The notes below the pieces were generated by a model. That model searched no databases. It saw only the letters and a program-made list of their open reading frames with translations, and was not told the DNA's origin. 64,000 nucleotides of DNA from Salipaludibacillus daqingensis (lineage in GTDB: Bacteria > Bacillota > Bacilli > Bacillales > Salisediminibacteriaceae), in the NCBI RefSeq assembly GCF_029891575.1, contig NZ_JARZHF010000001.1, positions 62,001-126,000 of the forward strand. Direction: 5' to 3'. Below, piece by piece: positions 4,341 to 51,410 of the stretch. Each line of letters opens with the position of its first letter. Position 1 is the first letter of the stretch. Both the position numbers and the translations under genes were made by a program.

Positions 4341-4619
4341 TTGCAACTATATCTTTCACCGGAGTTCTATAAACAAGATGCTCAAGTATTAAATATTGTT
4401 ACGGATAAATCAAAACCTGTAGGATATCTTGCTTTTTTAATGACTGACAAGAAAATGTATGTGTATGGGGTGATTGAAGAAGAGGGAGTAGCTGAAGATT
4501 TCAAGGATTTAGTTACACCATTCATTCAGGGACTCACCAAATTGTCTTCAGAAATAGAAGTATTCACCTATTTATCTGTTGGGGGAAAGAAAATTGAATT
4601 CGAATCGCAGGAAGAGTGA
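4341..4619 (+). CDS. hypothetical 92-residue protein
   Basis: A TTG start preceded by GGAGGG 7 bases upstream. The protein (starting MQLYLSPEFYKQ) is acidic and has no membrane segment or cysteine. The middle reads as alternating beta strands (YLAFLMTDKKMYVYGVIEE). I do not recognise the family. It is divergent from the APC permease. A possible terminator hairpin (ACCTGGTT/AACCAGGT, about 4661-4691) follows. Confidence 0.6.
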   Translation: MQLYLSPEFYKQDAQVLNIVTDKSKPVGYLAFLMTDKKMYVYGVIEEEGVAEDFKDLVTPFIQGLTKLSSEIEVFTYLSVGGKKIEFESQEE

Positions 4620-4736
4620 TGTTTCTTTGTTATTCATGGTTCTAACTTACATTAGTAAACCTGGTTCGCATATCATTATGAAAACCAGGTATTTATTCAT
4701 TTGGAAACTTACATTATCATCATTGGATAATACTCA

Positions 4737-8876: not shown

Positions 8877-10127
8877 ATGGAAACAATAACTACAAATCTA
8901 AATCAACAAGACCATATTGAATCGTCAGCACCAGAATTAAATAAACCACAAACAAAATTAATTATAGGTGGATTAATTGTTGCTGCAATTTTAATGACTT
9001 ACTTAATGTTTACTCAAGAGGCAATGCATCCGCTCCTATTAATCATAGGATTATTACTCGGATATACGTTATTTCATTCACGTTTTGGATTCACATCTGC
9101 GTTTCGCCGTTTAATGTCGGTTGGGAATGGACAAGCCGTTCGATCACATATGGTTATGCTAGCGGTCGCCGTCACATTTTTTGCTCCTATTTTAGCTTTA
9201 GGTTACTCCTTTTTCGGAGCTGAAGTCGCTGGATATGTAGCTCCTGTAGGCGTCAGTCTAATAGTTGGAGCGTTTCTGTTTGGAATTGGAATGCAGCTAG
9301 GCGGTGGTTGTGCTTCTGGGACACTTTTTGCCGTCGGTGGTGGTAGATCTGTCATGTTTATTACGCTACTTTTCTTCATTGTCGGTTCTACTATAGGCGC
9401 TTACCATCTCCCTTTTTGGACGGAAGATATGCCTGCCGCTGAGCCAATTTCGTTAGCTACATCTACAGGCTTTGGCTACGGTGGAGCATGGGCTCTATCC
9501 GTCGTTTTATTCGGAATCATTGCTTGGATCACATTAGTCGTTGAAAAGAAAAAGAAAGCGCCAAAAATGGGGCCTGTACCAAGCGAAAAAGGTTGGAAGC
9601 GAATATTTCGTGGCTCATGGCCACTGTTTGTTGCAGCAGTAGTTCTTGCAGGGTTAAACGCACTTACGTTGATGACTCGTGGGGAACCGTGGGGTGTAAC
9701 TTCCGCTTTCGCTTTATGGGGCTCTAAAGGGGCTGAACTAATTGGCTTCAATGTGTCAAGCTGGGGATATTGGCAAGGTGATGCAGCTGTCGCCCTTGAA
9801 AGTTCGATTTTTGCTGATACGACAACTGTATTGAACTTCGGGGTCATTTTAGGAGCTTTTCTCGCTTCAGCAGCTGGAGGACTTTTCAAATTTTCGAAGA
9901 TTACTAAAGGAAACGCTGTCGCATCTGTTATCGGTGGACTTATGATGGGTTATGGTGCACGACTAGCATTTGGTTGTAACATTGGCGCCTACTTTGGCGG
10001 TATTGCATCATTTAGCCTTCATGGATATATTTGGGGTGCTCTTGCTTTAGCTGGAACCTTTTTAGCTCTATTTTTAAGACCTCTCTTTGGATTGTCTGTG
10101 CCAAAACCTCGAGATACATTTTGTTAA
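8877..10127 (+). CDS. YeeE/YedE family transporter, thiosulfate (TsuA-like) or sulfur compound uptake
   Basis: 416 residues with many membrane helices and internal duplication. The conserved cysteine motifs of the family are present: GGGCASGTLF (Cys145) and FGCNIGAYFGG (Cys367), plus HSRFGFTSAFR near residue 67. TsuA/YeeE proteins move thiosulfate by relay between conserved cysteines, and other members carry related sulfur compounds. I infer import of thiosulfate or a similar sulfur anion. No TusA-like or rhodanese gene is adjacent, so the partner enzyme must lie elsewhere. Own promoter and a weak terminator. Confidence 0.85.
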   Translation: METITTNLNQQDHIESSAPELNKPQTKLIIGGLIVAAILMTYLMFTQEAMHPLLLIIGLLLGYTLFHSRFGFTSAFRRLMSVGNGQAVRSHMVMLAVAVTFFAPILALGYSFFGAEVAGYVAPVGVSLIVGAFLFGIGMQLGGGCASGTLFAVGGGRSVMFITLLFFIVGSTIGAYHLPFWTEDMPAAEPISLATSTGFGYGGAWALSVVLFGIIAWITLVVEKKKKAPKMGPVPSEKGWKRIFRGSWPLFVAAVVLAGLNALTLMTRGEPWGVTSAFALWGSKGAELIGFNVSSWGYWQGDAAVALESSIFADTTTVLNFGVILGAFLASAAGGLFKFSKITKGNAVASVIGGLMMGYGARLAFGCNIGAYFGGIASFSLHGYIWGALALAGTFLALFLRPLFGLSVPKPRDTFC

Positions 10128-37398: not shown

Positions 37399-37567
37399 GT
37401 TAATTCACTCCTTAGCTTTAAGGTACTTTTCTTTTCGTTAAAAATCAAGACAGAACTGTTACTTCCCATTTTTTTGTATAATCACTGTAATTACCGTTTG
37501 AAATTTCAAAATATTAAGTATATGATAATCATATATCGTACCAAGGCATTTATTGGAGGTGGCATGT

Positions 37568-39283
37568 ATGGAAATCTTGAAACCAAAACAAGAAACGTAC
37601 CAATTAGCCAATTATGAGGAAGCAAAAAAATCTTTTAAATGGGAGGAAGTTAAGGACGTTTTCAGTTGGTCTAAAACAGGAAATGTAAATGCAGCTTATG
37701 AATGTATTGATCGGCATGTGAAAGATGGAAACGGAGAAAAAACCGCGCTGCTTTATTCCGATGCGTCGAGAAAAGAAACGTATACTTTTTCACAGCTAAA
37801 GAAAGAGACAAACCAAGCAGCTCACATGTTTCGGAGATTAAATGTAAAAAAAGGAGACCGTGTGTTTATTTTCATGCCTCGTTCTCCAGAATTATATGTA
37901 GCACTGCTCGGTGCTATTAAAATGGGTGCTGTCACTGGTCCTCTATTTGAAGCATTCATGAAGGAAGCTGTGAAGAGTAGATTAGAAGATAGCGAGGCAA
38001 AGATGATCGTGACAACTCCTGATCTTGTTTCTCGTATTCCTTATGACGAGCTCCCACATTTAGAAAAAATTATTCTTGTAGGTGATCAAGTTCAAACAGA
38101 CGGTCCTTTCTATTCTTATTTTGAAGAAATGAAAGCGTCACCAACAGATGATTCAGCGATTGAATGGGTCGATCTAGAAGACGGAATGATCCTCCATTAC
38201 ACTTCTGGGTCAACTGGAAAACCTAAAGGGGTCTATCACGTTCACAATGCGATGATCCAGCACTACCAAACGGCTAAATGGGTCCTTGATTTACGAGAAG
38301 ATGATATATATTGGTGTACCGCTGACCCTGGTTGGGTTACTGGAACTTCCTACGGTATTTTTGGACCATGGCTTAACGGTGTAACGAATGTCATTCGTGG
38401 AGGACGTTTCTCTCCAGATGACTGGTATGACACGATCGAAAAAAATAACGTAACCATTTGGTACAGTGCGCCAACTGCTTTCAGAATGCTGATGGCAGCG
38501 CCAAAAGAGATTCTTACTAAATACGACCTAAGTTCGTTACGTCATATTTTAAGTGTTGGCGAACCACTCAACCCTGAAGTTGTTCGTTGGGGTTGGGACG
38601 TATTCCATCACCGAATCCACGATACGTGGTGGATGACAGAAACAGGCGGTATGCTTATTTGTAACTATTTAAGTGAACCGATTAAACCTGGTTCTATGGG
38701 TCGTCCTTTCCCAGGTATTCATGCCGCAATCATTGATAATAACGGAAAAGAACTAGCCCCTTATGAAATGGGGAACTTAGCCATTCAAGCAGGATGGCCT
38801 GCTCAAATGAGAAAAATTTGGAAAAACGAACCGAAATTCAAAGAGTATTTTTCTATTCCTGGTTGGTATGTATCCGGCGACACGGCATATGTGGATGAGG
38901 AAGGTTACTTCTGGTTCCAAGGTCGTAATGACGATGTGATTATGACAGCGGGAGAGCGTGTTGGTCCTTTTGAAATTGAAAGTAAATTGTTAGAACACCC
39001 TGCGGTCTCTGAAGCAGGTGTGATTGGAAAACCGGATGAAATGCGTGGGCACATTATCAAAGCGTTCATTTCTCTGAATCCAGGCTATGAGAACTCAGAA
39101 AAGTTAATTGCAGACATTAAACATTTTATCAAATCTGAACTTTCTGCTCATGCTGTTCCTAAGGAAATTGAATTCAAAGAAAAGCTTCCTAAAACACGGA
39201 GTGGAAAAATCATGCGTCGCGTGTTAAAAGCATGGGAATTAAACGAACCTGCTGGAGATTTATCAACAATTGATGACGCCTAA
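37568..39283 (+). CDS. acsA: acetate-CoA ligase (acetyl-CoA synthetase)
   Basis: 571 residues, the length of B. subtilis AcsA. AMP-forming motifs: HYTSGSTGKPKGV (about 211), WWMTETGG, YVSGDTAYVDEEGYFWFQGR, and the C-terminal acetylation-type Lys region PKTRSGKIMRR. It makes acetyl-CoA from acetate, ATP and CoA. I use the ATG at 37568, with TTGGAGGTGG upstream. It is not next to acuABC, the usual regulator neighbours. A TATAAT-like box near 37475 may be its promoter. Confidence 0.95.
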   Translation: MEILKPKQETYQLANYEEAKKSFKWEEVKDVFSWSKTGNVNAAYECIDRHVKDGNGEKTALLYSDASRKETYTFSQLKKETNQAAHMFRRLNVKKGDRVFIFMPRSPELYVALLGAIKMGAVTGPLFEAFMKEAVKSRLEDSEAKMIVTTPDLVSRIPYDELPHLEKIILVGDQVQTDGPFYSYFEEMKASPTDDSAIEWVDLEDGMILHYTSGSTGKPKGVYHVHNAMIQHYQTAKWVLDLREDDIYWCTADPGWVTGTSYGIFGPWLNGVTNVIRGGRFSPDDWYDTIEKNNVTIWYSAPTAFRMLMAAPKEILTKYDLSSLRHILSVGEPLNPEVVRWGWDVFHHRIHDTWWMTETGGMLICNYLSEPIKPGSMGRPFPGIHAAIIDNNGKELAPYEMGNLAIQAGWPAQMRKIWKNEPKFKEYFSIPGWYVSGDTAYVDEEGYFWFQGRNDDVIMTAGERVGPFEIESKLLEHPAVSEAGVIGKPDEMRGHIIKAFISLNPGYENSEKLIADIKHFIKSELSAHAVPKEIEFKEKLPKTRSGKIMRRVLKAWELNEPAGDLSTIDDA

Positions 39284-40174: not shown

Positions 40175-41575
40175 ATGTTTGCAGCACATGCTGATACAAA
40201 TGAAATGCTAAAAGCGATCTTAAAAAGCATTGATGAAGGTATTCATGTCATTGATAAATATGGAAAGACGATTTATTACAACGAAATAGCCGCTGACCAT
40301 GATGGGATGGATGTAGAAAATGTCATCGGGAAACCTTTACTTGATGTATTCCCATCACTAACAACAGAAACAAGTACGATGTTAAAAGTGATAAAATCAG
40401 GTGTTCCAATTTACAATCAACACCAAACATACCGCAATGTAGAGGGGAAATTAATTGATACCGTAAATACAACCATTCCAATCATCGTCCATCAACAATT
40501 GTATGGAGCAGTGGAAATTGCGAAAGATTTTTCTAGAGTGAAAGACCTTTCTAATAAATTAATTGAATTACAAACGAAAATGGATAAACGCTTGGAAAAA
40601 CCTAAGAGTATTAGTAAATACAGTACGATATACCAATTTCATGATATTTTAACAGATCACCCTTCTATGAAAAAAATAATTACTCGTGCTAAACGCGTGT
40701 CAAAAACCACTTCCCCAATAATGGTTTATGGGGAAACTGGAACTGGGAAGGAACTTTTGGTTCAAGGCATTCACCACCATTCCAAACAATCAAAAGGACC
40801 ATTTATTTCGCAAAACTGTGCTGCTATTCCCCCAACCTTATTGGAAAGCGTCTTATTTGGTACGATAAAAGGAAGCTTTACTGGCGCAGAAAATAAAGAA
40901 GGGTTATTTGAATTAGCACACGGTGGCACATTATTTTTAGATGAAATTCATACCCTTCCCTTTGATCTGCAAGCAAAAATGTTGAGAGTATTAGAGGATG
41001 GCGTTATTAGAAGGATCGGTTCTCATAAAGCCGTACAGACGGATGTAAGAATTATCACGGCGACCAATGAACCTCCAGAAAAATTACTAAAAAAAGAATT
41101 GTTACGAAAAGATCTATACTATCGATTGAATGTCGTTTCTCTTTCCATTCCCCCACTTAGAGAACGAATTAGTGATTTACCAATTTTAATCGATGCTTTT
41201 ATTCAATCGTTTAATCAAAAATTCCAGTTAAACGTGCAAGGAGTTGAAAAAGATGCGCTGACTTCTCTTCGAAGATATGACTGGCCTGGTAATATTCGCG
41301 AACTGCGTCATGCGATTGAATCAGCAATGAATATGACTGACTCTTCCAAACTTTCCCTAGAACATTTCCCTTCGTACTTAGCTGACTTCGTGGAGCAGGC
41401 AAACCTTCCTGAAGTGGAGCAACACGGATTAAAACATACCGTGGAAGAATATGAAAAAAACGTCGTAATAAAGATGTTTGATCAAGAAAACCATAATATT
41501 TTACGTACAGCAAAAAAACTTGGAATTCCAAGACAAACGTTGCAATACAAACTTCAAAAATACGAGATTATTTAA
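40175..41575 (+). CDS. kamR: sigma-54 dependent activator of the lysine locus (KamR-like)
   Basis: 466 residues: a PAS domain (about 10-120), an AAA+ sigma-54 activator domain (about 155-385) with Walker A GETGTGKE (about 185), the sigma-54 contact loop GSFTGA (about 233) and FLDEIH, and a C-terminal Fis-type helix-turn-helix (ILRTAKKLGIPRQTLQYKL). KamR is the activator described for the kam locus of Bacillus thuringiensis. Here it is followed by a sigma-54 promoter and kamA. The PAS domain presumably senses lysine or a product. ATG with AGAGGTGAG upstream. Confidence 0.88.
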   Translation: MFAAHADTNEMLKAILKSIDEGIHVIDKYGKTIYYNEIAADHDGMDVENVIGKPLLDVFPSLTTETSTMLKVIKSGVPIYNQHQTYRNVEGKLIDTVNTTIPIIVHQQLYGAVEIAKDFSRVKDLSNKLIELQTKMDKRLEKPKSISKYSTIYQFHDILTDHPSMKKIITRAKRVSKTTSPIMVYGETGTGKELLVQGIHHHSKQSKGPFISQNCAAIPPTLLESVLFGTIKGSFTGAENKEGLFELAHGGTLFLDEIHTLPFDLQAKMLRVLEDGVIRRIGSHKAVQTDVRIITATNEPPEKLLKKELLRKDLYYRLNVVSLSIPPLRERISDLPILIDAFIQSFNQKFQLNVQGVEKDALTSLRRYDWPGNIRELRHAIESAMNMTDSSKLSLEHFPSYLADFVEQANLPEVEQHGLKHTVEEYEKNVVIKMFDQENHNILRTAKKLGIPRQTLQYKLQKYEII

Positions 41576-41607
41576 GAGAGTGCCAGATTTCCGGCACTCT
41601 CTTTTCT
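41576..41607 (+). terminator. terminator after kamR
   Basis: GAGAGTGCC, 8-base loop, GGCACTCTC then TTTTC. A 9-bp perfect stem right at the kamR stop. It separates kamR from kamA, so kamA depends on its own promoter. It contains the third dyad. Confidence 0.8.
41581..41596. promoter_or_regulatory. dyad 3, candidate KamR upstream activating site
   Basis: TGCCAGATTTCCGGCA. Centred about 98 bases before the predicted kamA transcription start, a normal distance for an enhancer-binding activator. It resembles the two dyads before kamR but also forms the heart of the terminator stem, so the match could be partly coincidental. Confidence 0.35.
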
Positions 41608-41657
41608 AGTTTATTTGAAAAAGGTTGATTCCATGTTTTTTTTAGGAAGAAATGATT

Positions 41658-41674
41658 TGGCACACTTCTTGCAT
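41658..41674 (+). promoter_or_regulatory. sigma-54 (-24/-12) promoter of kamA
   Basis: TGGCACACTTCTTGCAT: TGGCAC, 5 bases, TTGCAT. GG and GC are 12 bases apart as required. Predicted start about 41686. Published work on the kam locus of B. thuringiensis reports sigma-54 control through KamR, in agreement. Confidence 0.88.
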
Positions 41675-41716: not shown

Positions 41717-43111
41717 ATGAAATTTGATTTATACAAACCGAAACGGCATTGGAAAGAAATTGACTTATGGAAAGACGTTACAGATGAACAGTGGAATGAT
41801 TGGATTTGGCAATTAACAAATACGATTCGGACCCTAGAAGATTTAAAGAAAGTTGTTCATTTAACACCTGATGAAGAAGAAGGCGTGAAAATATCAACAA
41901 AAACGATTCCCTTAAATATCACACCTTATTATGCTTCGCTAATGAATCCTGATGATCCAAGGTGCCCGATACGTATGCAATCGGTTCCTGTTTCTGCTGA
42001 AATTCAAAAAACAAAATATGATCTTGAAGATCCATTATTTGAAGACGAGGATTCTCCCGTGCCTGGATTGACGCATCGTTACCCAGACCGCGTGTTATTT
42101 CTCGTCACTAATCAGTGCTCTATGTACTGTCGCTATTGCACACGTCGAAGGTTTTCTGGCCAAATTGGCATGGGTGTTCCGAAAAAACAGTTAGATGGAG
42201 CGATTGAATATATCCGACAAACACCTGAAGTTCGGGATGTCTTAATTTCTGGTGGAGATGGATTATTAATTAATGACCAAATATTGGAATACGTTTTAAA
42301 AAATTTACGCGAGATTGATCATGTGGAAATTATTCGCATTGGCACAAGAGCTCCCGTTGTTTTTCCACAGCGTATTACGGAGAACTTGTGTAACATGTTA
42401 AAGAAATACCACCCGGTTTGGGTCAATACGCACTTTAATACGTCTCTTGAAATTACCGAGGAATCTAAGAAAGCAGTTGAAATGCTCGCAAATGCAGGGG
42501 TTCCTGTTGGAAATCAAGCAGTTATTTTAGCTGGTATTAATGATAGCGTAGAGATTATGAAAAAACTTTGTCATGACCTCGTAAAAATACGCTGCCGTCC
42601 TTATTATATTTATCAATGTGATCTATCAGAAGGAATTGGTCATTTCCGCACACCGGTCTCTAAAGGGCTAGAGATTATCGAAGGTCTTCGTGGCCATACA
42701 TCTGGGTATGCTGTGCCGCAATTTGTCGTTGACGCCCCAGGAGGCGGAGGTAAAATTACTCTACAACCGAACTATCTCATTTCTCAAAGTCCTGATAAGG
42801 TGGTTCTTCGTAACTTTGAAGGTGTTATTACGACATATCCTGAACCGAAATTTTATACCCCTGGTACGGCAGACGAATACTTTTACAATTATTATGAGAA
42901 AAAAGCAACCAAACGAGTTGGAGTGTCAGCTCTCATGAATGATGAAGAGTTTAATTTGGTCCCTGAAGGAATACAGCGTTTGGATCGACGTTCCAATTAT
43001 GCAGATGATGAAAGCCATGAAACATTGAAAAACCGTCGTTCTAAGCGAGATGAAATGGTTGAGAAGAAATTTGCGAAAGAGCAGAAAAAATATCAAAAAG
43101 AAGAAGTATAG
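41717..43111 (+). CDS. kamA: lysine 2,3-aminomutase
   Basis: 464 residues. Radical-SAM cluster CSMYCRYC (Cys134, Cys138, Cys141), SAM-binding SGGDGLL, and the PLP-binding PGGGGK with the Lys near residue 340. It converts L-lysine to L-beta-lysine (3,6-diaminohexanoate) in an iron-sulfur and PLP dependent radical reaction. It is the AblA enzyme of acetyl-beta-lysine synthesis and the first step of the degradation route proposed here. GGAGG 7 bases before the ATG. yokU follows after 20 bases. Confidence 0.96.
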   Translation: MKFDLYKPKRHWKEIDLWKDVTDEQWNDWIWQLTNTIRTLEDLKKVVHLTPDEEEGVKISTKTIPLNITPYYASLMNPDDPRCPIRMQSVPVSAEIQKTKYDLEDPLFEDEDSPVPGLTHRYPDRVLFLVTNQCSMYCRYCTRRRFSGQIGMGVPKKQLDGAIEYIRQTPEVRDVLISGGDGLLINDQILEYVLKNLREIDHVEIIRIGTRAPVVFPQRITENLCNMLKKYHPVWVNTHFNTSLEITEESKKAVEMLANAGVPVGNQAVILAGINDSVEIMKKLCHDLVKIRCRPYYIYQCDLSEGIGHFRTPVSKGLEIIEGLRGHTSGYAVPQFVVDAPGGGGKITLQPNYLISQSPDKVVLRNFEGVITTYPEPKFYTPGTADEYFYNYYEKKATKRVGVSALMNDEEFNLVPEGIQRLDRRSNYADDESHETLKNRRSKRDEMVEKKFAKEQKKYQKEEV

Positions 43112-43131
43112 CTTCAAGGAGGATGTTTCAC

Positions 43132-43410
43132 ATGCAGTGCAAATGGTGTAAATCTGATAGAGCATTAGAGTCACTTGAATCAGCATATTGGGAGTTACCA
43201 GATGGTACAAGAGCAGTTGAAATTAAAGAAGTACCTTCTATCAACTGTCCAGATTGTACGATTATCTATATCGAAGAAGAACAAATTACAGAATTAGAAA
43301 ATCATTTTATGTTAATTGATACAAAAAAACTAGGCTCTAGTTTCACTTTTAAAGAATTGATGGATCAACCAACATTGCTTAAGAAAAATTATTTTGCAAT
43401 GAATGATTAG
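43132..43410 (+). CDS. yokU: YokU family CxxC protein
   Basis: 92 residues starting MQCKWCKSD, with a second pair in INCPDC. It is the YokU family, found next to kamA in Bacillus. The two CxxC pairs suggest a zinc or iron-sulfur knuckle; the role is unknown, perhaps help to KamA. The start at 43132 is chosen because AGGAGG lies 7 bases upstream; the ATG 9 bases earlier overlaps that site. Confidence 0.85.
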   Translation: MQCKWCKSDRALESLESAYWELPDGTRAVEIKEVPSINCPDCTIIYIEEEQITELENHFMLIDTKKLGSSFTFKELMDQPTLLKKNYFAMND

Positions 43411-43496: not shown

Positions 43497-44306
43497 TTAT
43501 GTAGCTAATTCTTTCGTCCATATATTCATATCTTCATACCCCGACGAAATTTTACAATTATTCACTAAAGTCCCCTCAAACTTATAGCACAAACGTTTTA
43601 TCGTCATATTCATGCCTACAGATTTTGCCCGTGTTATCGAAAACACATTTGATATTCCATCTTTCATGAGTTGATCTTCCAAGTTCATAATAATTCCGTG
43701 TAAAATATTTTTCCCTCGATAGGTTGGGTCTACGGCACAGTCTGTTATTTCAGCACTAGCGTAACCTGTTTTCATCGCAGATGCTGAGCCAATTATTTCT
43801 CCGTTTTCGTTCACTGCCAAGACAAACGTATATTCTGTTGCCACTGCTTTTTTAATATACTCTGGGTCAAAAATATTTGTAGGATAGACATCAAATACTT
43901 TTTGATATAGTTTAGATAGCGGTTTAAAATGTTTTTCATTGCTTTCTTTAAGATGAATGAATGAGATATTACTCCACGTTTCTGAAGGTGTTGTTTGATC
44001 TGTCTCAACGATCTTTAATACAGACTGATTTTCCGTGTTGGAAGTTGAATTCTGTCGCGTTTCTTTGGAAAACCACGTAAATATTTCGGCTTTCTTTCCA
44101 TTAAAAAAACCAGACATATTTGCTTCATGATGAAAGTCTAGAGAGATTAGTTTATTTCTTTCGTCATTTGTCGTATAAACAATCAATTTACTGTATTCTT
44201 TGGCTTGTTTTTCTTTTTGTAATCTAGCAATATTTTCTTCTGATACGACGGGTAAATAAGCAACTAGCCGCTCATTCCATGAATCTTTGTCCCATGTTTC
44301 TTTCAT
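43497..44306 (-). CDS. ablB: beta-lysine N6-acetyltransferase (AblB/YodP)
   Basis: 269 residues. A GNAT domain sits in the C-terminal half: FVLAVNENGEIIGSASAM, then VDPTYRGKNILHGIIMN (acetyl-CoA loop), and MNMTIKRLCYKFEGT. AblB acetylates the 6-amino group of beta-lysine. N6-acetyl-beta-lysine is an osmolyte in methanogens, and here is the likely first intermediate of breakdown. Start at 44306 with AGGAGG about 10 bases upstream. It is convergent with kamA-yokU and separated from the aldehyde dehydrogenase by a repeat-rich gap. Confidence 0.88.
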   Translation of the reverse strand: MKETWDKDSWNERLVAYLPVVSEENIARLQKEKQAKEYSKLIVYTTNDERNKLISLDFHHEANMSGFFNGKKAEIFTWFSKETRQNSTSNTENQSVLKIVETDQTTPSETWSNISFIHLKESNEKHFKPLSKLYQKVFDVYPTNIFDPEYIKKAVATEYTFVLAVNENGEIIGSASAMKTGYASAEITDCAVDPTYRGKNILHGIIMNLEDQLMKDGISNVFSITRAKSVGMNMTIKRLCYKFEGTLVNNCKISSGYEDMNIWTKELAT

Positions 44307-44421
44307 TCGCTGTGTTCCTCCTATCATTTAGGACACTCTGGATGTTCCACCTTAATGAGCGTCCCGGTACTTGTGCTTTCGAGACACTCGCTACGATTGA
44401 TCCCCCTAGCACGAATCGTAA

Positions 44422-44455
44422 GGTACTATACCACTCGTTTACTTCCTTTCGCTCG
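44422..44455. repeat. direct repeat copy A in the ablB upstream gap
   Basis: About 34 bases, sharing 27 of 34 with copy B at 44525-44558. Core shared string CGTTTACTTCC, then a CTTTCGCT-like end. A hairpin lies between the copies. The 312-base gap holds no convincing gene. Confidence 0.55.
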
Positions 44456-44468
44456 GCTGGTAGCGACT

Positions 44469-44501
44469 GAAAGGAACTATCTTGCTCTTATAGTTCCTTT
44501 C
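44469..44501. repeat. 12-bp perfect hairpin in the ablB upstream gap
   Basis: GAAAGGAACTAT, 9-base loop CTTGCTCTT, ATAGTTCCTTTC. No T-run follows, so it is not a simple terminator. It lies between repeat copies A and B. Confidence 0.6.
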
Positions 44502-44524
44502 ATCGACGGACCGCTCACTCGTCG

Positions 44525-44558
44525 GGCACTATCATACCCGTTTACTTCCCTTCGCTTG
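44525..44558. repeat. direct repeat copy B in the ablB upstream gap
   Basis: Second copy of the 34-base repeat, start-to-start distance 103 bases. A further partial similarity (GCACGAA, then CTATACC and CTCGT) is seen at 44410-44436 and 44570-44595. Confidence 0.55.
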
Positions 44559-44618
44559 AAAACCCTACGCACGAATGTCGCTATACCTCTCGTACCCATC
44601 CCCGCTTAGCTTAATTAC

Positions 44619-46040
44619 CTAGTTATGATTAAAGCAAACGAGTTTGATTTCAGTCATCTCTTCAATAGCGTACTTGATACCTTCGCGTCCAGTCCCGCTT
44701 TGCTTCACACCACCATACGGCATATGGTCAACTCGGAAAGTAGGAAAGTCATTGATCATGACGCCGCCAACTTCTAGTTCCTCCGATGCAGTGAAGGCAT
44801 GTTTCATATTATTCGTATAAACCCCTGCTTGTAAACCGTAATCCGAATCATTGACGAGATCAATCGCTTGTTGCCAATCATCAAACGTATCAACAATTAC
44901 TACTGGTCCAAAAACTTCCCCACAGGAAACTTTCATCGATGAATCAACATTTTCAAGAACTGTCGGTTTTATAATCATACCTTCCTCTTCCCCACCTGTA
45001 ACGATGCGAGCACCTTGATCGACTGCTTCTTGGATCCAAGATAACACACGATTTTTTTCCGATTCAGATATTAACGCAGATAATTGGGTTGCATCATCAA
45101 GAGGATCTCCAATTACCCATTTTTTCAATGTCTCTTTCATCTTTTTTAATAATTCACGTTTTTTTGATTCGTGAACATAGATGCGTTGAACAGAAATGCA
45201 AACTTGGCCTTGAAAAGCAAATGCCCCTTGAACAAGTCGTTCGACCATCCCATCAATATCTACATCCTTATCAATGATAACCGCTGAATTTGATCCTAGT
45301 TCCAAAGTAACTTTTTTCAATCCTGCTTTATTTCTTATACCTATGCCTACCTCAGGACTTCCAGTAAACGTGATGACACCGATTCGCTCATCTGTCACTA
45401 ACGCATCACCGATTGTGCTCCCTTTACCTGTCACGACGTTTAATGCTCCTTTAGGTAATCCAGCTTTATCAAAAATATCGGCGATGAAATAAGCAGATAG
45501 TGGCGTCTGAGAAGCAGGTTTTAAAACAACCGGGTTGCCGCTTGCAATGGCCGGTCCCAGTTTATGAGCAACTAAATTCATCGGAAAATTAAAAGGGGTG
45601 ATTGCTGCAACTATGCCAGTCGGCTCTCGTCTCGTATAGGACGTACGATTCTCCCCACCAGGTGCCGCATCCATATTGACTACTTCTGTTGGTAACCTTC
45701 TAGCTTCTTCGCTTGCAAATTTATAGGTCATGATTGTTCTTGCCACTTCACCTCTAGCCGTTTGAATCGGTTTAGCAGCTTCTGTAGCGATAATTCGTGC
45801 ACACTCTTCTCGATTTTGTGCAATTAATCTTGCAACGTTATCTAAAATATCTGCTCGTTCGTGTGCAGGCATTTTTTTCATTACTTTTTTATTTTTTTTC
45901 GCTGTATCAATAGCTGCGTCAACCTCTTGAATAGTTGCTAGAGGAATTTCCGCAATTTTTTGTCCATCAAAAGGGGAATATAGGTCTTGCACATGTGATG
46001 CTTCAACCCATTCTCCACCAATAAACAATTTTTTTCTCAT
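44619..46040 (-). CDS. NAD(P)-dependent aldehyde dehydrogenase, probably succinate-semialdehyde type
   Basis: 473 residues. Cofactor region VAAITPFNFPMNLVAHKLGP and FTGSPEVG; catalytic Glu in LELGSNSAVI and Cys near 281 in FQGQVCISVQ. It oxidises an aldehyde to an acid. Because it follows a GABA-type aminotransferase by 10 bases, succinate semialdehyde is the natural substrate, giving succinate. Some relatives are glyceraldehyde-3-phosphate or lactaldehyde dehydrogenases, so the substrate is inference. Start at 46040 (MRKKLFIGGEW), where GGTGAGG lies upstream. Confidence 0.85.
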   Translation of the reverse strand: MRKKLFIGGEWVEASHVQDLYSPFDGQKIAEIPLATIQEVDAAIDTAKKNKKVMKKMPAHERADILDNVARLIAQNREECARIIATEAAKPIQTARGEVARTIMTYKFASEEARRLPTEVVNMDAAPGGENRTSYTRREPTGIVAAITPFNFPMNLVAHKLGPAIASGNPVVLKPASQTPLSAYFIADIFDKAGLPKGALNVVTGKGSTIGDALVTDERIGVITFTGSPEVGIGIRNKAGLKKVTLELGSNSAVIIDKDVDIDGMVERLVQGAFAFQGQVCISVQRIYVHESKKRELLKKMKETLKKWVIGDPLDDATQLSALISESEKNRVLSWIQEAVDQGARIVTGGEEEGMIIKPTVLENVDSSMKVSCGEVFGPVVIVDTFDDWQQAIDLVNDSDYGLQAGVYTNNMKHAFTASEELEVGGVMINDFPTFRVDHMPYGGVKQSGTGREGIKYAIEEMTEIKLVCFNHN

Positions 46041-46050
46041 GTATAACGCC

Positions 46051-47403
46051 TCACCTTCTTTTTGTACCATGATCTTCCATTACTGACTCCAGTATACCTA
46101 ACCCGGCATGCAATTGTTCATCTGTAATCACAAGTGGCGAAAGGATTCGGATCACATTTCCATATAAGCCTGCTCCCATGATAAGCAATCCCCGTTTTAT
46201 ACAACCTTGAATCAACTGCTGCGTAAGTTGTTTATTAGGTTCTTTGGTCTCGCGATTTGTGACTAATTCCATCGCCATCATGGCACCTAAACCACGGACA
46301 TCACCTATTTCTTCAAAGCGATCTTGCATCTTAAGGAAACGTTCTCGCACTTGTTTTCCAATTTGATTTGCTCTTTCTGGTAAATTTTCTTCAATCATCA
46401 TGTCCATCACTTCATTAGCGGCGACACAACCTAACGGGCTGCCTCCGTATGTTCCACCGATTTCTCCGATACCGGGTGAATCCATGATTTCTGCTCTTCC
46501 TGTTACAGCGCTTATAGGTAGTCCTGCCGCGATTGATTTTGACATCGTCATCATATCAGGAATAATATCAAACTGCTCAGATGCAAATAATGTCCCTGTT
46601 CTACCAAAGCCTGATTGCACTTCATCCGCTATAAATAGAATTCCATGCTCATCGCAAATTTCCTTCACTTGTTTTATAAAACGTTTACTAGGTACGACAA
46701 ATCCTCCTTCACCTTGAACAGGTTCCATGATCACAGCAGCAGTTTCATCAGCAGATACTTCAGATAAGAAAAATGTTTTTAAACGGCGAATACATTCATT
46801 ATCAACTTCTTCATCTGTCATCCCATCAGGTTTGCGATAATAATACGGATAGCTCATTTTATAAGTATCCGCTACGAAAGGTCCAAACTGATATTTATAA
46901 GGTTTCACTTTACTTGTGAGGGACATAGCCATGTACGTCCTTCCATGAAATCCTCTTTCAAATGAAAGGATCGCTTTCCTTCCCGTAAATTTCCGCGCTA
47001 TTTTCACAGCATTTTCTACTGCCTCTGCTCCACTGTTCAAAAAAAATGTTTTCTTGTGATGATCTCCTGGAGTATAGTGATTGAGTTTTTCAGCTAATTC
47101 TATATAAGATTCATACATCATCACATGAAAACACGGATGAAGGAATTTTTCGATTTGATCTTTCAACGCTTTCACTACTTTAGGTGGACAATGACCTGCA
47201 TTTAAAGATCCAATTGCTCCAGCAAAGTCGATAAATTCTTGACCATCCACATCAGTAACTATCGCTCCATCTGCGTTTGCAGCAAATGTCTGAGCTGTGT
47301 TAAATGGTCCTTTAGGAATATGTTTATTCCGTCTATCTAATAATTTCTCTCCAACAGGCCCTGGAATCTGAAAAGCATTTTGCTGGTGTTTTATTTCTTT
47401 CAT
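46051..47403 (-). CDS. gabT: 4-aminobutyrate aminotransferase (GabT-like)
   Basis: 450 residues, class III PLP aminotransferase. IDFAGAIGSLNAGHCPPKVV, FFLNSGAEAVENAVKIARKFTG, PVQGEGGFVVP, IADEVQSGFGRTG and the PLP Lys in MTMSKSIAAGLP fit 4-aminobutyrate aminotransferase closely. It converts GABA and 2-oxoglutarate to succinate semialdehyde and glutamate. It overlaps yodQ by 4 bases and lies 10 bases before the aldehyde dehydrogenase. The B. subtilis yod cluster lacks this pair at this place, so it is a locus-specific addition. Confidence 0.85.
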   Translation of the reverse strand: MKEIKHQQNAFQIPGPVGEKLLDRRNKHIPKGPFNTAQTFAANADGAIVTDVDGQEFIDFAGAIGSLNAGHCPPKVVKALKDQIEKFLHPCFHVMMYESYIELAEKLNHYTPGDHHKKTFFLNSGAEAVENAVKIARKFTGRKAILSFERGFHGRTYMAMSLTSKVKPYKYQFGPFVADTYKMSYPYYYRKPDGMTDEEVDNECIRRLKTFFLSEVSADETAAVIMEPVQGEGGFVVPSKRFIKQVKEICDEHGILFIADEVQSGFGRTGTLFASEQFDIIPDMMTMSKSIAAGLPISAVTGRAEIMDSPGIGEIGGTYGGSPLGCVAANEVMDMMIEENLPERANQIGKQVRERFLKMQDRFEEIGDVRGLGAMMAMELVTNRETKEPNKQLTQQLIQGCIKRGLLIMGAGLYGNVIRILSPLVITDEQLHAGLGILESVMEDHGTKRR

Positions 47404-48686
47404 GCTTTCTCCTCCTCAACGTTACACCATTTTATTAACGTACCTGCAATGACTTCAGCACATTGGCGAACGTTTTTGATTTCAATGTATTCATTCGCTT
47501 GATGTGCCATTTTCGTAACTCCTGGACCGAATACAACCGAAGGAATATTTCCAACCGCCGTCAACAATCCACCATCCGTTCCCCAAGGAGCTGCTTCGAT
47601 TTGTGGTGAATGACCAATCACTTGTTCAAACTGATCCGTAAGAATGTTCATAAAAGCATGGTCCGCATCGATGGATCCCGGTAACCATCTTGCACCATAC
47701 CATTCTACATCGACAGGATGTTGTTTAAACCAGTCATCCGCGTCCTCTAATGTACGAATCGCTTCTTGAAATTCTGCTTGAACTTCTTTCACCGTTTCTT
47801 CATCAGAAAAGCCAATCCGTCCTTCGACTTTTACTAAATCAGGCACAGAAGATGGCCATCCACCACCTTCGATAACACCGACGTTTATTGGTAAAGGAAT
47901 CGGGGCTTGGGAATAGAGAGGATCCGTAACCCTTGCATTTCGAATCTTTTCTAATTGTTCAAGGACAGTAAGTACTTTCTGCGTTTTTACGATCGCATTA
48001 ACTCCTTCGTAACTCATCCCACCATGAGCTGATTTTCCTTTGATGAGTAACCTAAACCACATAGATCCTTGCTGTTTCGGAAATATTTTCATGTTTGTTG
48101 GTTCAGGGATCAAGGCGGCATCTGCTGTATAACCTTTTAAAATGGCCGCTAACGTTCCTGCACCTCCACTTTCTTCTTCTATAACACTATGAAAAACAAC
48201 GTCACCCTTCATTGGAATCGCGAGAGATTTAATCGCTTGAAGGGCAAATAACATGGCAACATTGCCTCCCTTCATATCCGTTGCTCCTCTCCCATAAATA
48301 CATCCCTCTTTCAATGACCCCGCAAAAGGGTTCTCATCCCAATCGGTGATATCGCCTTCTGGAACAACGTCCACGTGCCCGTTTAACACGATCGATTTTC
48401 CACCGCCCGTTCCTTTAAGGACACCAACAACATTCGGACTTCCTTCAAAGTTTTCTCGACTTGATATAAAAGCATCATGTTCCGTTAATTTAGTTCCACC
48501 CGGTTCCCACATATCCACTTTAAAGCCAAGGTTTTTAAGTGATTGAGCTACTTTTTTTTGAATCCCACTTTCGTTTAACTGAACAGATGGTTCTTGGATC
48601 ATTTGTTGCAACTGCAAAATAAGTTCCTGTTCATGGTCCATCATCCACTTATTAATTTTTTTTACTTGTTCACCTTGATTTATCAC
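47400..48686 (-). CDS. yodQ: YodQ-type M20 metallopeptidase/deacetylase
   Basis: 428 residues, ArgE/DapE/CPG2 family. The zinc ligands are in NGHVDVVPEGD and GRGATDMKGGNVAMLFAL, and the catalytic Glu pair in HSVIEEESGG. A dimerisation domain follows (GKSAHGGMSYEGVNAI). It hydrolyses an amide; in this pathway it is best placed to remove acetyl from 4-acetamidobutyrate, releasing GABA for the next enzyme. GTG start with GAGGGGA upstream, overlapping yodR by 4 bases. Confidence 0.85.
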   Translation of the reverse strand: MINQGEQVKKINKWMMDHEQELILQLQQMIQEPSVQLNESGIQKKVAQSLKNLGFKVDMWEPGGTKLTEHDAFISSRENFEGSPNVVGVLKGTGGGKSIVLNGHVDVVPEGDITDWDENPFAGSLKEGCIYGRGATDMKGGNVAMLFALQAIKSLAIPMKGDVVFHSVIEEESGGAGTLAAILKGYTADAALIPEPTNMKIFPKQQGSMWFRLLIKGKSAHGGMSYEGVNAIVKTQKVLTVLEQLEKIRNARVTDPLYSQAPIPLPINVGVIEGGGWPSSVPDLVKVEGRIGFSDEETVKEVQAEFQEAIRTLEDADDWFKQHPVDVEWYGARWLPGSIDADHAFMNILTDQFEQVIGHSPQIEAAPWGTDGGLLTAVGNIPSVVFGPGVTKMAHQANEYIEIKNVRQCAEVIAGTLIKWCNVEEEKA

Positions 48687-49351
48687 AAACGATTCCCCTC
48701 TTTCACGAGCTTATCAATCCTAACAAAGGATGCCCCTGTATTTTCTTTTACTTCTTCAACAGAATATGGTTCAAACACTTCTTTTAGGACAAGCCCGTCT
48801 TTTTCTACTGCAACAACAGCCATGTCTGTGATAACAAGATGAACACACGCTTCTGCTGTTAACGGCAAGGAACATTGTTTTACGATTTTAGGCTTTCCGT
48901 CTTTTCCAACATGGTTCATTAAAATCACAACTTTTTTAGCTTTTTGAGCTAACTCTAACGCTCCACCCATTCCTGGTACTCGTTTACCTGGAACAATCCA
49001 ATTGGCTAAATCCCCTCGTTCACTTACTTCTAAAGCCCCCATGATCGTCATATCTAACAACCCACGTCTAACGATAGCAAAAGCGACGCCACTATCGAAA
49101 TAAGATGATCCAGGTGATGCTGTAATAGGAAAACCACCAGCGTTACAAAGATTTGGATTTTCTTTTCCTTCTTCTGGGCTTGGGCCCGTTCCTAATATTC
49201 CATTTTCAGCATGAAACATCACTGGTAAATCACGAACGTAATTAGCCACAAGAGTAGGAATTCCAATACCTAAATTAACAACCATGCCAGCTTCAATTTC
49301 TTGTGCTGCCCTTTCGGCAATTTTATGCCTTATTTCTTTTCCCATGCCCAT
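48683..49351 (-). CDS. yodR: CoA-transferase subunit B (YodR)
   Basis: About 222 residues. The catalytic Glu is in FHAENGILGTGP, and LGIGIPTLV and YFDSGVAFAIVRRG are family hallmarks of the 3-oxoacid CoA-transferase beta subunit. With YodS it moves CoA between carboxylic acids. The start is uncertain among TTG 49357, ATG 49351 and ATG 49345; GAGGGGG lies upstream and I choose 49351. It overlaps yodS by about 22 bases. Confidence 0.88.
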   Translation of the reverse strand: MGMGKEIRHKIAERAAQEIEAGMVVNLGIGIPTLVANYVRDLPVMFHAENGILGTGPSPEEGKENPNLCNAGGFPITASPGSSYFDSGVAFAIVRRGLLDMTIMGALEVSERGDLANWIVPGKRVPGMGGALELAQKAKKVVILMNHVGKDGKPKIVKQCSLPLTAEACVHLVITDMAVVAVEKDGLVLKEVFEPYSVEEVKENTGASFVRIDKLVKEGNRL

Positions 49352-50037
49352 GACCAATCAACCCCCTCACTTACTACGATATGATCAACAAAAACGCCTG
49401 ATGTCACCACTTCTTCAGGATCTAATTCGCCTAGTGGAACAATTTCCTCCACTTCTGCAATCGTAATATTTCCAGCCATAGCCACAAGTGGATTCGTGTT
49501 TCTAGCGCTCGTATCGTAGATCAAGTTTCCAAATGAATCTGCTTTTTTAGCATAAACAATCGACACATCTGCCGTTAAACTTGGTTCAACCAAATATGTT
49601 TTCTCATTGATAACTACCGTTTGCTTATCTTTTTCTACAAATTCATTTCCTACGCCCACATCAACAAACACACCTCCAAGACCAACTCCACCAGCTCTTA
49701 TTTTTTCTGCTAGCGTTCCTTGAGGAAAAAAGTGAACATCTAGTGTTCCCTCGGTCATTTGGCGACCCGCATTTGGATTGGAACCGATATGACTCGTGTA
49801 TAAGGAAGCAACTTTTTTCTCACTTACTAATTGACCAATTCCTATATCAGGAAATCCAGCATCGTTACATATAACTGAAATGTCCTCAATCTGTTCTTCT
49901 AAAATGGTTCGTATTAACGTAGGTGGATTTCCTACTCCACCAAATCCCCCTACCATTAGCGACATCCCATTTTTGAATAAAGGTCTGATTTGATTCCACG
50001 TTTTATGTTTAGGTTGTTGTTTCATTGGTGTATTCAT
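49330..50037 (-). CDS. yodS: CoA-transferase subunit A (YodS)
   Basis: 235 residues. The glycine-rich CoA-binding motif is MVGGFGGVGNPPTLI, followed by VICNDAGFPDIGIGQLV and HFFPQGTLAEKIRAGG of the alpha subunit. It pairs with YodR. The likely substrate is a beta-keto acid or acyl-CoA derived from acetyl-beta-lysine. ATG with AGGAGG upstream, overlapping yodT by 4 bases. Confidence 0.88.
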   Translation of the reverse strand: MNTPMKQQPKHKTWNQIRPLFKNGMSLMVGGFGGVGNPPTLIRTILEEQIEDISVICNDAGFPDIGIGQLVSEKKVASLYTSHIGSNPNAGRQMTEGTLDVHFFPQGTLAEKIRAGGVGLGGVFVDVGVGNEFVEKDKQTVVINEKTYLVEPSLTADVSIVYAKKADSFGNLIYDTSARNTNPLVAMAGNITIAEVEEIVPLGELDPEEVVTSGVFVDHIVVSEGVDWSWAWEKK

Positions 50038-51410
50038 GAGACTCCTCCTCTCTCATCAAGTGATTGAAAATATCCTTGGAATTGAAGTTCCTCTTGCAAT
50101 TCATGGACTGCCTCCTCAAAAATAAGAACAATTTTTTCTAACTGTTCCTTTTCAATCGTTAAAGGGGGAGCAATGAGAATGGCATCTCCTGCATTTCCTT
50201 CTATCCCTGCAGATGCTGGATACACGAGTAAACCTTTCTCCATGCATTTGTTAATCACCGTTTTTGATACATTAACTTCTGATGCAAAAGGAAGTTTGTT
50301 AAATATATTTGAAACGAATTCTATACCTACCATTAGCCCTAATCCTCTAACATCACCAATGATCGGATATTTTTGCTGAAGAGCCTGTAATTTCCCTATT
50401 AATATTTCACCCATAATTTCGGAACGTTTCACTAATTGATGTTTGTTGATATAATCTAACACTGCTAAACCAACTGCCGTAGACTGCGGATTACCACTAT
50501 ATGTGTGCCCACTCATAATTAGTTTTGATCCAGCTAAAATTGGTTTCATTACTTTATCGCTAATCATCGTTGCCGCTAGAGGTGCATATCCCCCCGTTAA
50601 TCCTTTTCCTAATGCAATCATGTCAGGTACAACATTCCAATGATCGATGGCAAAAGATTTTCCTGTCCGTCCAATCCCACACATCACTTCATCCGCAATA
50701 AATAAAATCTCATGCCGATCACAAATCTCTCGAATTTTTTCGTAATACCCTGCAGGTGGAACAACAGCTGCACCGGCTGCTCCAATCACCGGTTCGGCAA
50801 TAAATGCAGCAATCTGATCGGCACCTACTCTGTTTATTGCTGTCTCCAACTCTTGAGCACACATAAGCTGGCAGTCTGGATATGTTTGATGAAAAGGACA
50901 CCTATAACAATATGGTGGATTAATGGACGGGAAATCCTGTAATAAAGAAGTAAACCGCTCCCTTCTACCTCTATGCCCAGACATAGAGAGAGCACCGAGT
51001 GTAATTCCGTGATAACTCATCCAACGAGACAACACTTTAATTTTCGAAGGTTTTCCCTTCTCTTGCCAATATTGTACCGCGACCTTTAGCGCCGTTTCCG
51101 TTGCTTCTGAACCACTATTAACGAAAAAGCTCCAATTTACATCACCTGGAGCCCATTCTTTCAAAGCGTGTGCTAATTTTTCTGCCGGTTCACTCGTAAA
51201 TTGAGATCTATACACAAATGAAACCTTCTCCGCTTGCTCTTTCATAACATCAGCAATTTCTAGAACACCATGGCCAATACTTGCCGTTACGGCTCCAGAT
51301 GAACCATCGATATATTCATTTCCATTTTTATCGTACAAATATATTCCTTTGCCATAATCGGCTACCGGATAATCTTGATCTAAAAAAGGCTTGATAAGAT
51401 AACTATCCAA
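50034..51410 (-). CDS. yodT: YodT class III aminotransferase
   Basis: 458 residues. GSSGAVTASIGHGV, FFVNSGSEATETALKVA, AEPVIGAAGAAVVPP, IADEVMCGIGRTGKS and the PLP Lys in MIALGKGLTGGYAPLA. It would remove the 3-amino group of N6-acetyl-beta-lysine to give 3-oxo-6-acetamidohexanoate. TTG start with AGGAGG upstream. First gene of the minus-strand series; a cre-like site and a palindrome lie in its promoter region. Confidence 0.85.
   Translation of the reverse strand: MDSYLIKPFLDQDYPVADYGKGIYLYDKNGNEYIDGSSGAVTASIGHGVLEIADVMKEQAEKVSFVYRSQFTSEPAEKLAHALKEWAPGDVNWSFFVNSGSEATETALKVAVQYWQEKGKPSKIKVLSRWMSYHGITLGALSMSGHRGRRERFTSLLQDFPSINPPYCYRCPFHQTYPDCQLMCAQELETAINRVGADQIAAFIAEPVIGAAGAAVVPPAGYYEKIREICDRHEILFIADEVMCGIGRTGKSFAIDHWNVVPDMIALGKGLTGGYAPLAATMISDKVMKPILAGSKLIMSGHTYSGNPQSTAVGLAVLDYINKHQLVKRSEIMGEILIGKLQALQQKYPIIGDVRGLGLMVGIEFVSNIFNKLPFASEVNVSKTVINKCMEKGLLVYPASAGIEGNAGDAILIAPPLTIEKEQLEKIVLIFEEAVHELQEELQFQGYFQSLDERGGVS

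Follow-up and report, generated by a model that had tools for sequence, protein, structure and literature searches.

The DNA considered here is a 64,000-nucleotide (nt) stretch of the Salipaludibacillus daqingensis genome (contig NZ_JARZHF010000001.1, positions 62,001 to 126,000), hereafter the window, and the locus of interest is a kam locus with genes that may specify the breakdown of lysine. All genes named in the original prediction lie where it placed them on the minus strand, in the order yodT-yodS-yodR-yodQ-gabT-aldehyde dehydrogenase-ablB, and they do face kamA, since kamA (plus strand) and ablB converge with the small yokU gene between them (Table 1). Absent from that description were yokU, the regulatory gene kamR and a perfect sigma-54 site. 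In a mechanical list of open reading frames, the six genes from yodT through the dehydrogenase gene overlap by 4 to 28 nt, suggesting that they form one transcript. A gap of 291 nt separates the dehydrogenase gene from ablB. It is filled by a dispersed repeat (44330-44615; units of about 52 nt plus an inverted repeat), parts of which match 30 other places in the genome.

Table 1. Features of the kam locus and its surroundings (positions in the window)
Feature	Positions	Strand	Basis
acsA-type acetate-CoA ligase	37553..39283	+	NF003313, 937 bits (cut-off 729)
kamR, regulator with PAS, sigma-54 activator AAA and Fis-type HTH domains	40175..41575	+	PF00158, PF02954 and PAS matches
Terminator-like stem-loop, 11 pairs, at the end of kamR	41574..41603	+	consensus match only
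Sigma-54 (-24/-12) promoter-like site of kamA, TTGGCACACTTCTTGCA	41657..41673	+	perfect TTGGCA-N6-TTGCA match
kamA (ablA), lysine 2,3-aminomutase (lysine to beta-lysine)	41717..43111	+	TIGR03820, 640 bits (cut-off 525); CxxxCxxC present
yokU, small protein with two CxxC pairs, possible KamA partner	43123..43410	+	PF14122, 121 bits
ablB, beta-lysine N6-acetyltransferase	43497..44327	-	TIGR03827, 237 bits (cut-off 205)
Aldehyde dehydrogenase, proposed succinate-semialdehyde dehydrogenase	44619..46070	-	PF00171
gabT, GABA transaminase	46051..47403	-	TIGR00700, 597 bits (cut-off 507)
yodQ, ArgE/DapE-family (M20) deacetylase, proposed 4-acetamidobutyrate (or -CoA) deacetylase	47400..48686	-	NF005373, 651 bits (cut-off 428)
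yodR, 3-oxoacid CoA-transferase subunit B	48683..49357	-	TIGR02428, 289 bits (cut-off 244); ENG motif present
yodS, 3-oxoacid CoA-transferase subunit A	49330..50037	-	TIGR02429, 190 bits (cut-off 128.5)
yodT, class III aminotransferase, proposed N6-acetyl-beta-lysine transaminase	50034..51410	-	NF005375, 749 bits (cut-off 535)

The predicted gene names agree with curated models, except that the aldehyde dehydrogenase obtains no specific name. YodR and YodS, each above the cut-off of its own model, make up a two-subunit 3-oxoacid coenzyme A (CoA)-transferase; the closest solved structures to YodS are subunits of 3-oxoacid and acetate CoA-transferases, and YodR has the ENG motif. The best solved match of YodQ is 3pfo, a putative acetylornithine deacetylase.

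The arrangement was compared across a set of loci (handles L; genomes, G; contigs, C) assembled from three sources: 60 loci picked by hand, mostly one per genus, from AblB matches over the cut-off among the matches listed (52 of the 60 with a YodT at 50% identity or more); the best 80 of at least 487 confirmed YodT matches; and six others, namely the window, three genomes of its family and two more. Dropping five loci with identical YodT left 133 with distinct YodT, of which 128, the window included, have yodT-S-R-Q contiguous and five miss a part of it. The sample is non-random, and the counts ignore kinship among genomes. An operon chain denotes same-strand genes with gaps of up to 900 nt, with gabT and dehydrogenase genes scored at 50% identity. 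Some names among the YodT match records (Pseudomonas sp. ISL-84, Chryseobacterium sp. ISL-80) appear to be wrong assignments. One genome of the same genus (G276) and two of the same family (G025 and G182) have the full yodT-S-R-Q-gabT-dehydrogenase-ablB order, converging on yokU-kamA-kamR with acsA beyond. Among the matches listed, a strong AblB occurs in 4 of the 11 family genomes sampled, that of the window included, so that the locus is patchy in the family; in the sample from the order the figure is 160 of 299. Within the 128 loci, ablB is found in 115, kamA in 109 and a kamR-like gene in 89, and in 82 both ablB and kamA stand in the same-strand chain with yodT. A search of the phylum with the YodQ model gave 9 of 398 genomes over the cut-off; outside the order, the short loci around YodQ matches held no kam context beyond YodQ itself.

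Some loci carry additional genes. A permease gene lies within the operon in 9 of the 128, and the one examined scores 743 bits with PRK10836 (cut-off 735), the model of the lysine transporter LysP. A LysP-type permease is also present in the L092 operon, a Peribacillus-type kam operon that includes a small ferredoxin gene (9566-9796), perhaps an electron source for KamA. Four of the 128 loci (L037, L042, L145 and L201) encode, between yodQ and ablB within the kam operon, a spore germinant receptor of the gerA type with its A, B and C subunits.

We consider it likely that the locus encodes an aerobic catabolism of lysine to succinate by way of N6-acetyl-beta-lysine and 4-aminobutyrate (GABA). 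In this scheme, KamA would convert lysine to beta-lysine and AblB would acetylate its 6-amino group, which would stop cyclisation. YodT would then pass the 3-amino group to a keto acid, leaving 3-oxo-6-acetamidohexanoate, onto which YodRS would load CoA. A thiolase, encoded elsewhere in this genome and in the operon in some relatives, would yield acetyl-CoA and 4-acetamidobutyryl-CoA; by handing the CoA of the latter to the next 3-oxo acid, YodRS could dispense with an ATP-driven ligase. Deacetylation by YodQ would give GABA plus acetate, and GabT together with the aldehyde dehydrogenase would carry GABA to succinate. KamR and sigma-54 would gate the first step. The substrates of YodT, YodRS, YodQ and the dehydrogenase, the recycling of CoA and the choice of thiolase are what we infer here. 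The enzyme families, the overlapping genes and the comparison of loci all agree with the carbon bookkeeping of the original prediction, whose description of the route as encoded almost whole is borne out: every gene that it named is at the locus, and thiolase is the one step lacking.

Several points weigh against this interpretation. No intact thiolase is present at 116 of the 128 loci, the window among them, and L148 and L173 lack one in spite of their Peribacillus layout. Both gabT and the dehydrogenase gene are missing from the operon chain in 77 of the 128, and the dehydrogenase of the window is not, by model, a GabD-type succinate-semialdehyde dehydrogenase (SSADH; TIGR01780, 387 bits against a cut-off of 646). 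A sigma-54 site precedes yodT in only 1 of 133 loci, so that KamR does not control all of the genes through such a site. For the YodT, YodRS, YodQ, GabT and dehydrogenase proteins encoded at these loci, the open-access literature yielded no enzyme assay. B. thuringiensis HD73 failed to use lysine as a nitrogen source in the medium tested (PMC4428206), and KamA of B. subtilis is made in sporulation only, its role being given as undetermined in PMC6522883. Finally, N6-acetyl-beta-lysine can be a solute, and the title of a reference in PMC9337991 reports it in B. cereus.

For the cleavage step, the original prediction offered a thiolase or a beta-keto acid cleavage enzyme (BKACE). The comparison favours the former. 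Twelve of the 128 loci contain an intact thiolase gene, every one exactly between yodR and yodQ: four of Paenibacillus (L146, L149, L150, L165), four of Peribacillus (L151, L157, L166, L169) and those of Bacillus sp. BA3 (L154), Ammoniphilus (L135), Salirhabdus (L184) and L092. The resulting gene order (aminotransferase, CoA-transferase, thiolase, deacetylase) follows the succession of the proposed reactions. These thiolases are 65-98% alike and all twelve keep the four catalytic positions. In the yodR-yodQ slot of L091, a locus from another family, a 36-codon thiolase remnant (4590-4697, 81% alike) hints at a loss of the gene in that lineage. No thiolase-like match was found elsewhere in the 146 loci (four reference thiolases, E 1e-8); the L092 genome has a second thiolase (50%) about 19 kb from that of the operon. 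The operon-borne thiolase is thus a direct candidate for the step lacking in the window's locus.

Neither a thiolase nor a BKACE is linked to the locus in the window, the region from 37 to 55 kb giving no thiolase match. The original prediction recommended a look elsewhere in the genome for either gene; there, three unlinked full-length thiolase genes were found, along with two weaker, partial Thiolase_N matches. One of the three is putatively MmgA-type (contig C6) and one FadA-type (C3), both named after their neighbours, and the third belongs to a distinct cluster on C10. They are 37-49% alike to the operon thiolases, and at 49% for the best, none is an ortholog. Among 26 genomes checked for such an ortholog, only G185 and G278 were positive (94% or more); the next best full thiolase match was at 51%, and in G105 a partial match (56%) contained two stops. 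In the window genome, one of the three other full-length thiolases would therefore have to serve. In B. velezensis, the hub genes of co-expression modules include atoB, paaH, mmgC and gltA, then atoD, atoA, argE, ablB and many sporulation genes, as listed in a figure legend of PMC12628753. This list fits mmgA as a helper in Bacillus; it does not prove a single module.

It appears very improbable that a BKACE, with acetyl-CoA and in place of a thiolase, cleaves the 3-oxo acid in its free form. The window genome has no BKACE match (PF05853), and the presence of thiolase in twelve operons also speaks against it. Among 59 genomes chosen for an AblB or YodT match (a few, such as G004, G009 and G096, without YodT in the stretch taken), BKACE was found in six and never at the kam locus: in two it shares the contig of the locus, at a distance of about 100 kb in G172 and 1.1 Mb in G167, and in four it is on other contigs of draft assemblies. 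BKACE is accordingly disfavoured as the cleaving enzyme.

The C10 cluster of the window genome (G000; L111 7443-17022) groups a CoA-transferase, the thiolase mentioned above, a YodT-like protein (38-40%), a TctABC transporter, an M81 metallopeptidase and a creatininase-family gene, and perhaps degrades another beta-amino compound. As the missing part of the lysine pathway it is not favoured, because the three family relatives searched lack a second YodT-like match of that strength and because the transporter suggests another substrate. Within a few kb of the kam operon, L169 (1642-2945) and L173 (1627-2930) have CoA-transferase genes like that of C10 (47-52%), and such genes are also present at the edge of L092, L148 and L154, so a connection between the cluster and the pathway may still exist.

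An exit through GABA had been proposed on the strength of the GabT-dehydrogenase pair, and the comparison supports it. The operon chain includes gabT in 40 of the 128 loci, the dehydrogenase gene in 32, both in 21 and either in 51, making the succinate tail a recurrent, non-constant part of the operon. Its model score clearly marks GabT as a GABA transaminase. Twelve of its 13 best solved matches bear that name, and it falls just under the cut-off of the narrower NF005376 (670.5 against 676). The second half of the prediction, a dehydrogenase yielding succinate, holds less well, the enzyme not being a canonical GabD. It passes the cut-off of no listed model (the best, for lactaldehyde dehydrogenase, gives 531 against 650), and its top three solved matches are aldehyde dehydrogenases with no specific name. 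Named structures rank as lactaldehyde dehydrogenase 3pqa (378 bits), ALDH21 5mz5 (376) and SSADH 3jz4 (313). According to PMC7823795, ALDH21 of moss is an NADP-dependent succinic semialdehyde dehydrogenase. This likeness and the operon context make SSADH activity likely. Conceivably, the two enzymes handle GABA of another origin, or some unrelated aldehyde, and have only the transcript in common with the pathway, as their absence from so many chains and the low SSADH score of the dehydrogenase would allow. We find this improbable given the GabT assignment and the recurrence of one or both genes in operons of Evansella, Salipaludibacillus, Cytobacillus, Fictibacillus, Robertmurraya, Paenibacillus and Brevibacillus. 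The gab cluster (gabT-gabD) likewise has a GABA transaminase of the standard family; the window differs in that its dehydrogenase belongs to another branch and both genes to a lysine operon.

The succession of the early steps could also differ. YodRS might activate acetyl-beta-lysine first, leaving YodT to transaminate the CoA ester, in the manner of the 3-aminobutyryl-CoA transaminase Kat, also of class III, which works on a beta-amino acyl-CoA (PMC3149608). We regard this sequence of events as rather unlikely: the position of yodT ahead of yodS-R-(thiolase)-yodQ mirrors the order expected if the free acid is transaminated. The pseudomonad transaminase, too, reportedly acted on the free acid. 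Neither point is decisive.

Analysis of regulatory signals points to control of the entry step. The sigma-54 site lies 43 nt before kamA, after the terminator-like stem, and is the only perfect match in the window; with one mismatch allowed, 6 sites are found against 3.2 expected, so that only the perfect one stands out. Of the 90 loci with kamR, 77 have such a site ahead of kamA, as opposed to 2 of the 19 without kamR; the background, which itself includes real sites, is 0.006 per 330 nt. Before ablB the site is seen in 4 of 117 loci. A sigma-54 gene is present in the window genome. As the site precedes kamA and so rarely yodT, KamR probably gates the entry step, with the yod operon under other control; sigma-54 control of yodT was rejected. 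Domains and site together place the window among kam loci of the B. cereus group type, in which KamR accompanies a sigma-54 site before kamA. The kamA gene of B. thuringiensis is likewise under KamR and sigma-54, with a -24/-12 site before the gene (PMC4428206); that of B. subtilis is under sigma-E (PMC6522883, PMC6957869). A scan of the region for sigma-70 promoters and terminators gave sites no more frequent than in shuffled sequence (terminator-like sites, 3 against 7.0). Riboswitch control was set aside since nothing between 36 and 56 kb matches Rfam. In relatives, a PucR-type regulator gene lies divergent from yodT (L114 8560-10206, L116, L119, L120 and others; identified in L114 and L120), and a pucR-like gene occurs in 24 of the 128 loci; unlike these relatives, the window has no PucR-type gene before yodT.

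These findings bear on the idea that KamA and AblB serve chiefly to produce a compatible solute, N6-acetyl-beta-lysine, which the yod genes would only remove when salt falls. The nearest named relatives, among the matches listed, are Salipaludibacillus and Evansella, lovers of salt and alkali, and the accumulation reported in B. cereus adds to the case. However, the KamR/sigma-54 site before kamA is of a catabolic kind, the Rfam search returned no riboswitch, and the 82 loci with ablB and kamA chained to yodT include genera not known as halophiles. We judge the solute explanation unlikely and retain the catabolic one.

Acetate set free by YodQ could be salvaged by the product of acsA. This gene lies near kamR in the family relatives, yet only 4 of the 128 loci contain it; its link to the locus is consequently weak, and it was rejected as a pathway member.

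The original prediction knew of no demonstration of the complete route. As chemistry, the route is old: in a pseudomonad, H. A. Barker's group is said to have described, in 1979-1981, the transamination of N6-acetyl-beta-lysine, a 4-acetamidobutyryl-CoA deacetylase-thioesterase and the transamination of GABA. The intermediates reported there are those proposed here (N6-acetyl-beta-lysine, 3-keto-6-acetamidohexanoate, 4-acetamidobutyryl-CoA, GABA and succinic semialdehyde); reportedly, these were enzyme activities without genes, one enzyme acting as both deacetylase and thioesterase. For the enzymes of this locus, the open-access literature gave no assay of these steps. The kam loci of B. thuringiensis HD73 and B. 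subtilis, which presumably consist of kamA, yodP/ablB and yodQ-T, have the same core genes; unlike them, the window has gabT and an aldehyde dehydrogenase gene inside the yod operon, converging on kamR-kamA-yokU. Anaerobic lysine fermentation shares lysine 2,3-aminomutase as the first step and the involvement of a CoA-transferase and a thiolase, and differs in its second aminomutase, keto-acid cleavage enzyme and butyrate product (PMC3149608). Already known are the activity of KamA, shown by others in B. subtilis, the kam locus in Bacillus, KamR and the reported pseudomonad chemistry. Less known are the gene-to-step case, the placement of the thiolase and the coincidence of YokU with KamA described below. 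The assignment of YodT, YodRS and YodQ to the route, the operon thiolase and the GabT-dehydrogenase variant did not turn up in the open-access literature. If correct, the scheme would give substrates to the common yodT-yodS-yodR-yodQ genes of spore-formers and sequences to activities reportedly known since about 1980, and it would open to experiment what lysine 2,3-aminomutase does in spore-forming aerobes. The relatives, by pointing to thiolase as the one absent enzyme, make the gene-to-step map testable as well.

YokU accompanies KamA closely. In 120 genomes of the order, YokU was found in 67 and an AblA-type KamA over the cut-off in 66, all 66 with YokU; the one extra genome (G019) has remnants of YokU and KamA side by side. 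Twelve further genomes with only a weaker KamA-like match lack YokU. The coincidence ignores the relatedness of the genomes. In 98 of the 109 loci with kamA, yokU is directly 3' of it. The remaining 11 comprise L205, which ends inside yokU; L058 and L163, where kamA is split (in L163 yokU follows the 3' part); the Paenibacillus loci L162, L170 and L185, with yokU before yodT; L155, with yokU elsewhere; and L159, L197, L198 and L076, in which no yokU was found. Both CxxC pairs are kept in all 56 distinct YokU proteins from named loci. A structure model (predicted local distance difference test score, pLDDT, 88) has no solved match under E 0.001, the only likeness being a weak one to the N-terminal (zinc) domain of MqsA (E 0.029). 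Pfam assigns YokU to the YokU family alone, labelled a putative antitoxin, and the MqsA likeness may explain that label. With kamA as the usual neighbour, a partner of KamA is the simpler reading. Tentatively, and with less confidence than in the pathway itself, we propose a closed, CoA-recycling lysine-to-succinate cycle that needs no ligase and in which YokU would serve aerobes as a dedicated partner of their oxygen-sensitive KamA (for its maturation, its protection or a metal site) rather than as an antitoxin. If true, a much-studied radical enzyme would have a helper that has gone unnoticed, as the co-occurrence of the two proteins indicates.

In a number of genomes kamA is split near residue 320-335 (G004, G044, G088, G096 and G115; L038, L058 and L163, with 3' parts in L136, L186 and L192). 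The 3' part and yokU then lie some kb off or on another stretch. A gene for a protein of 518-520 amino acids follows the 5' part in L038 and L058, and the one such gene searched gave no NCBIfam match at 1e-80. The splits resemble an insertion of the phi3T type that PMC6957869 reports in the kamA gene of B. subtilis.

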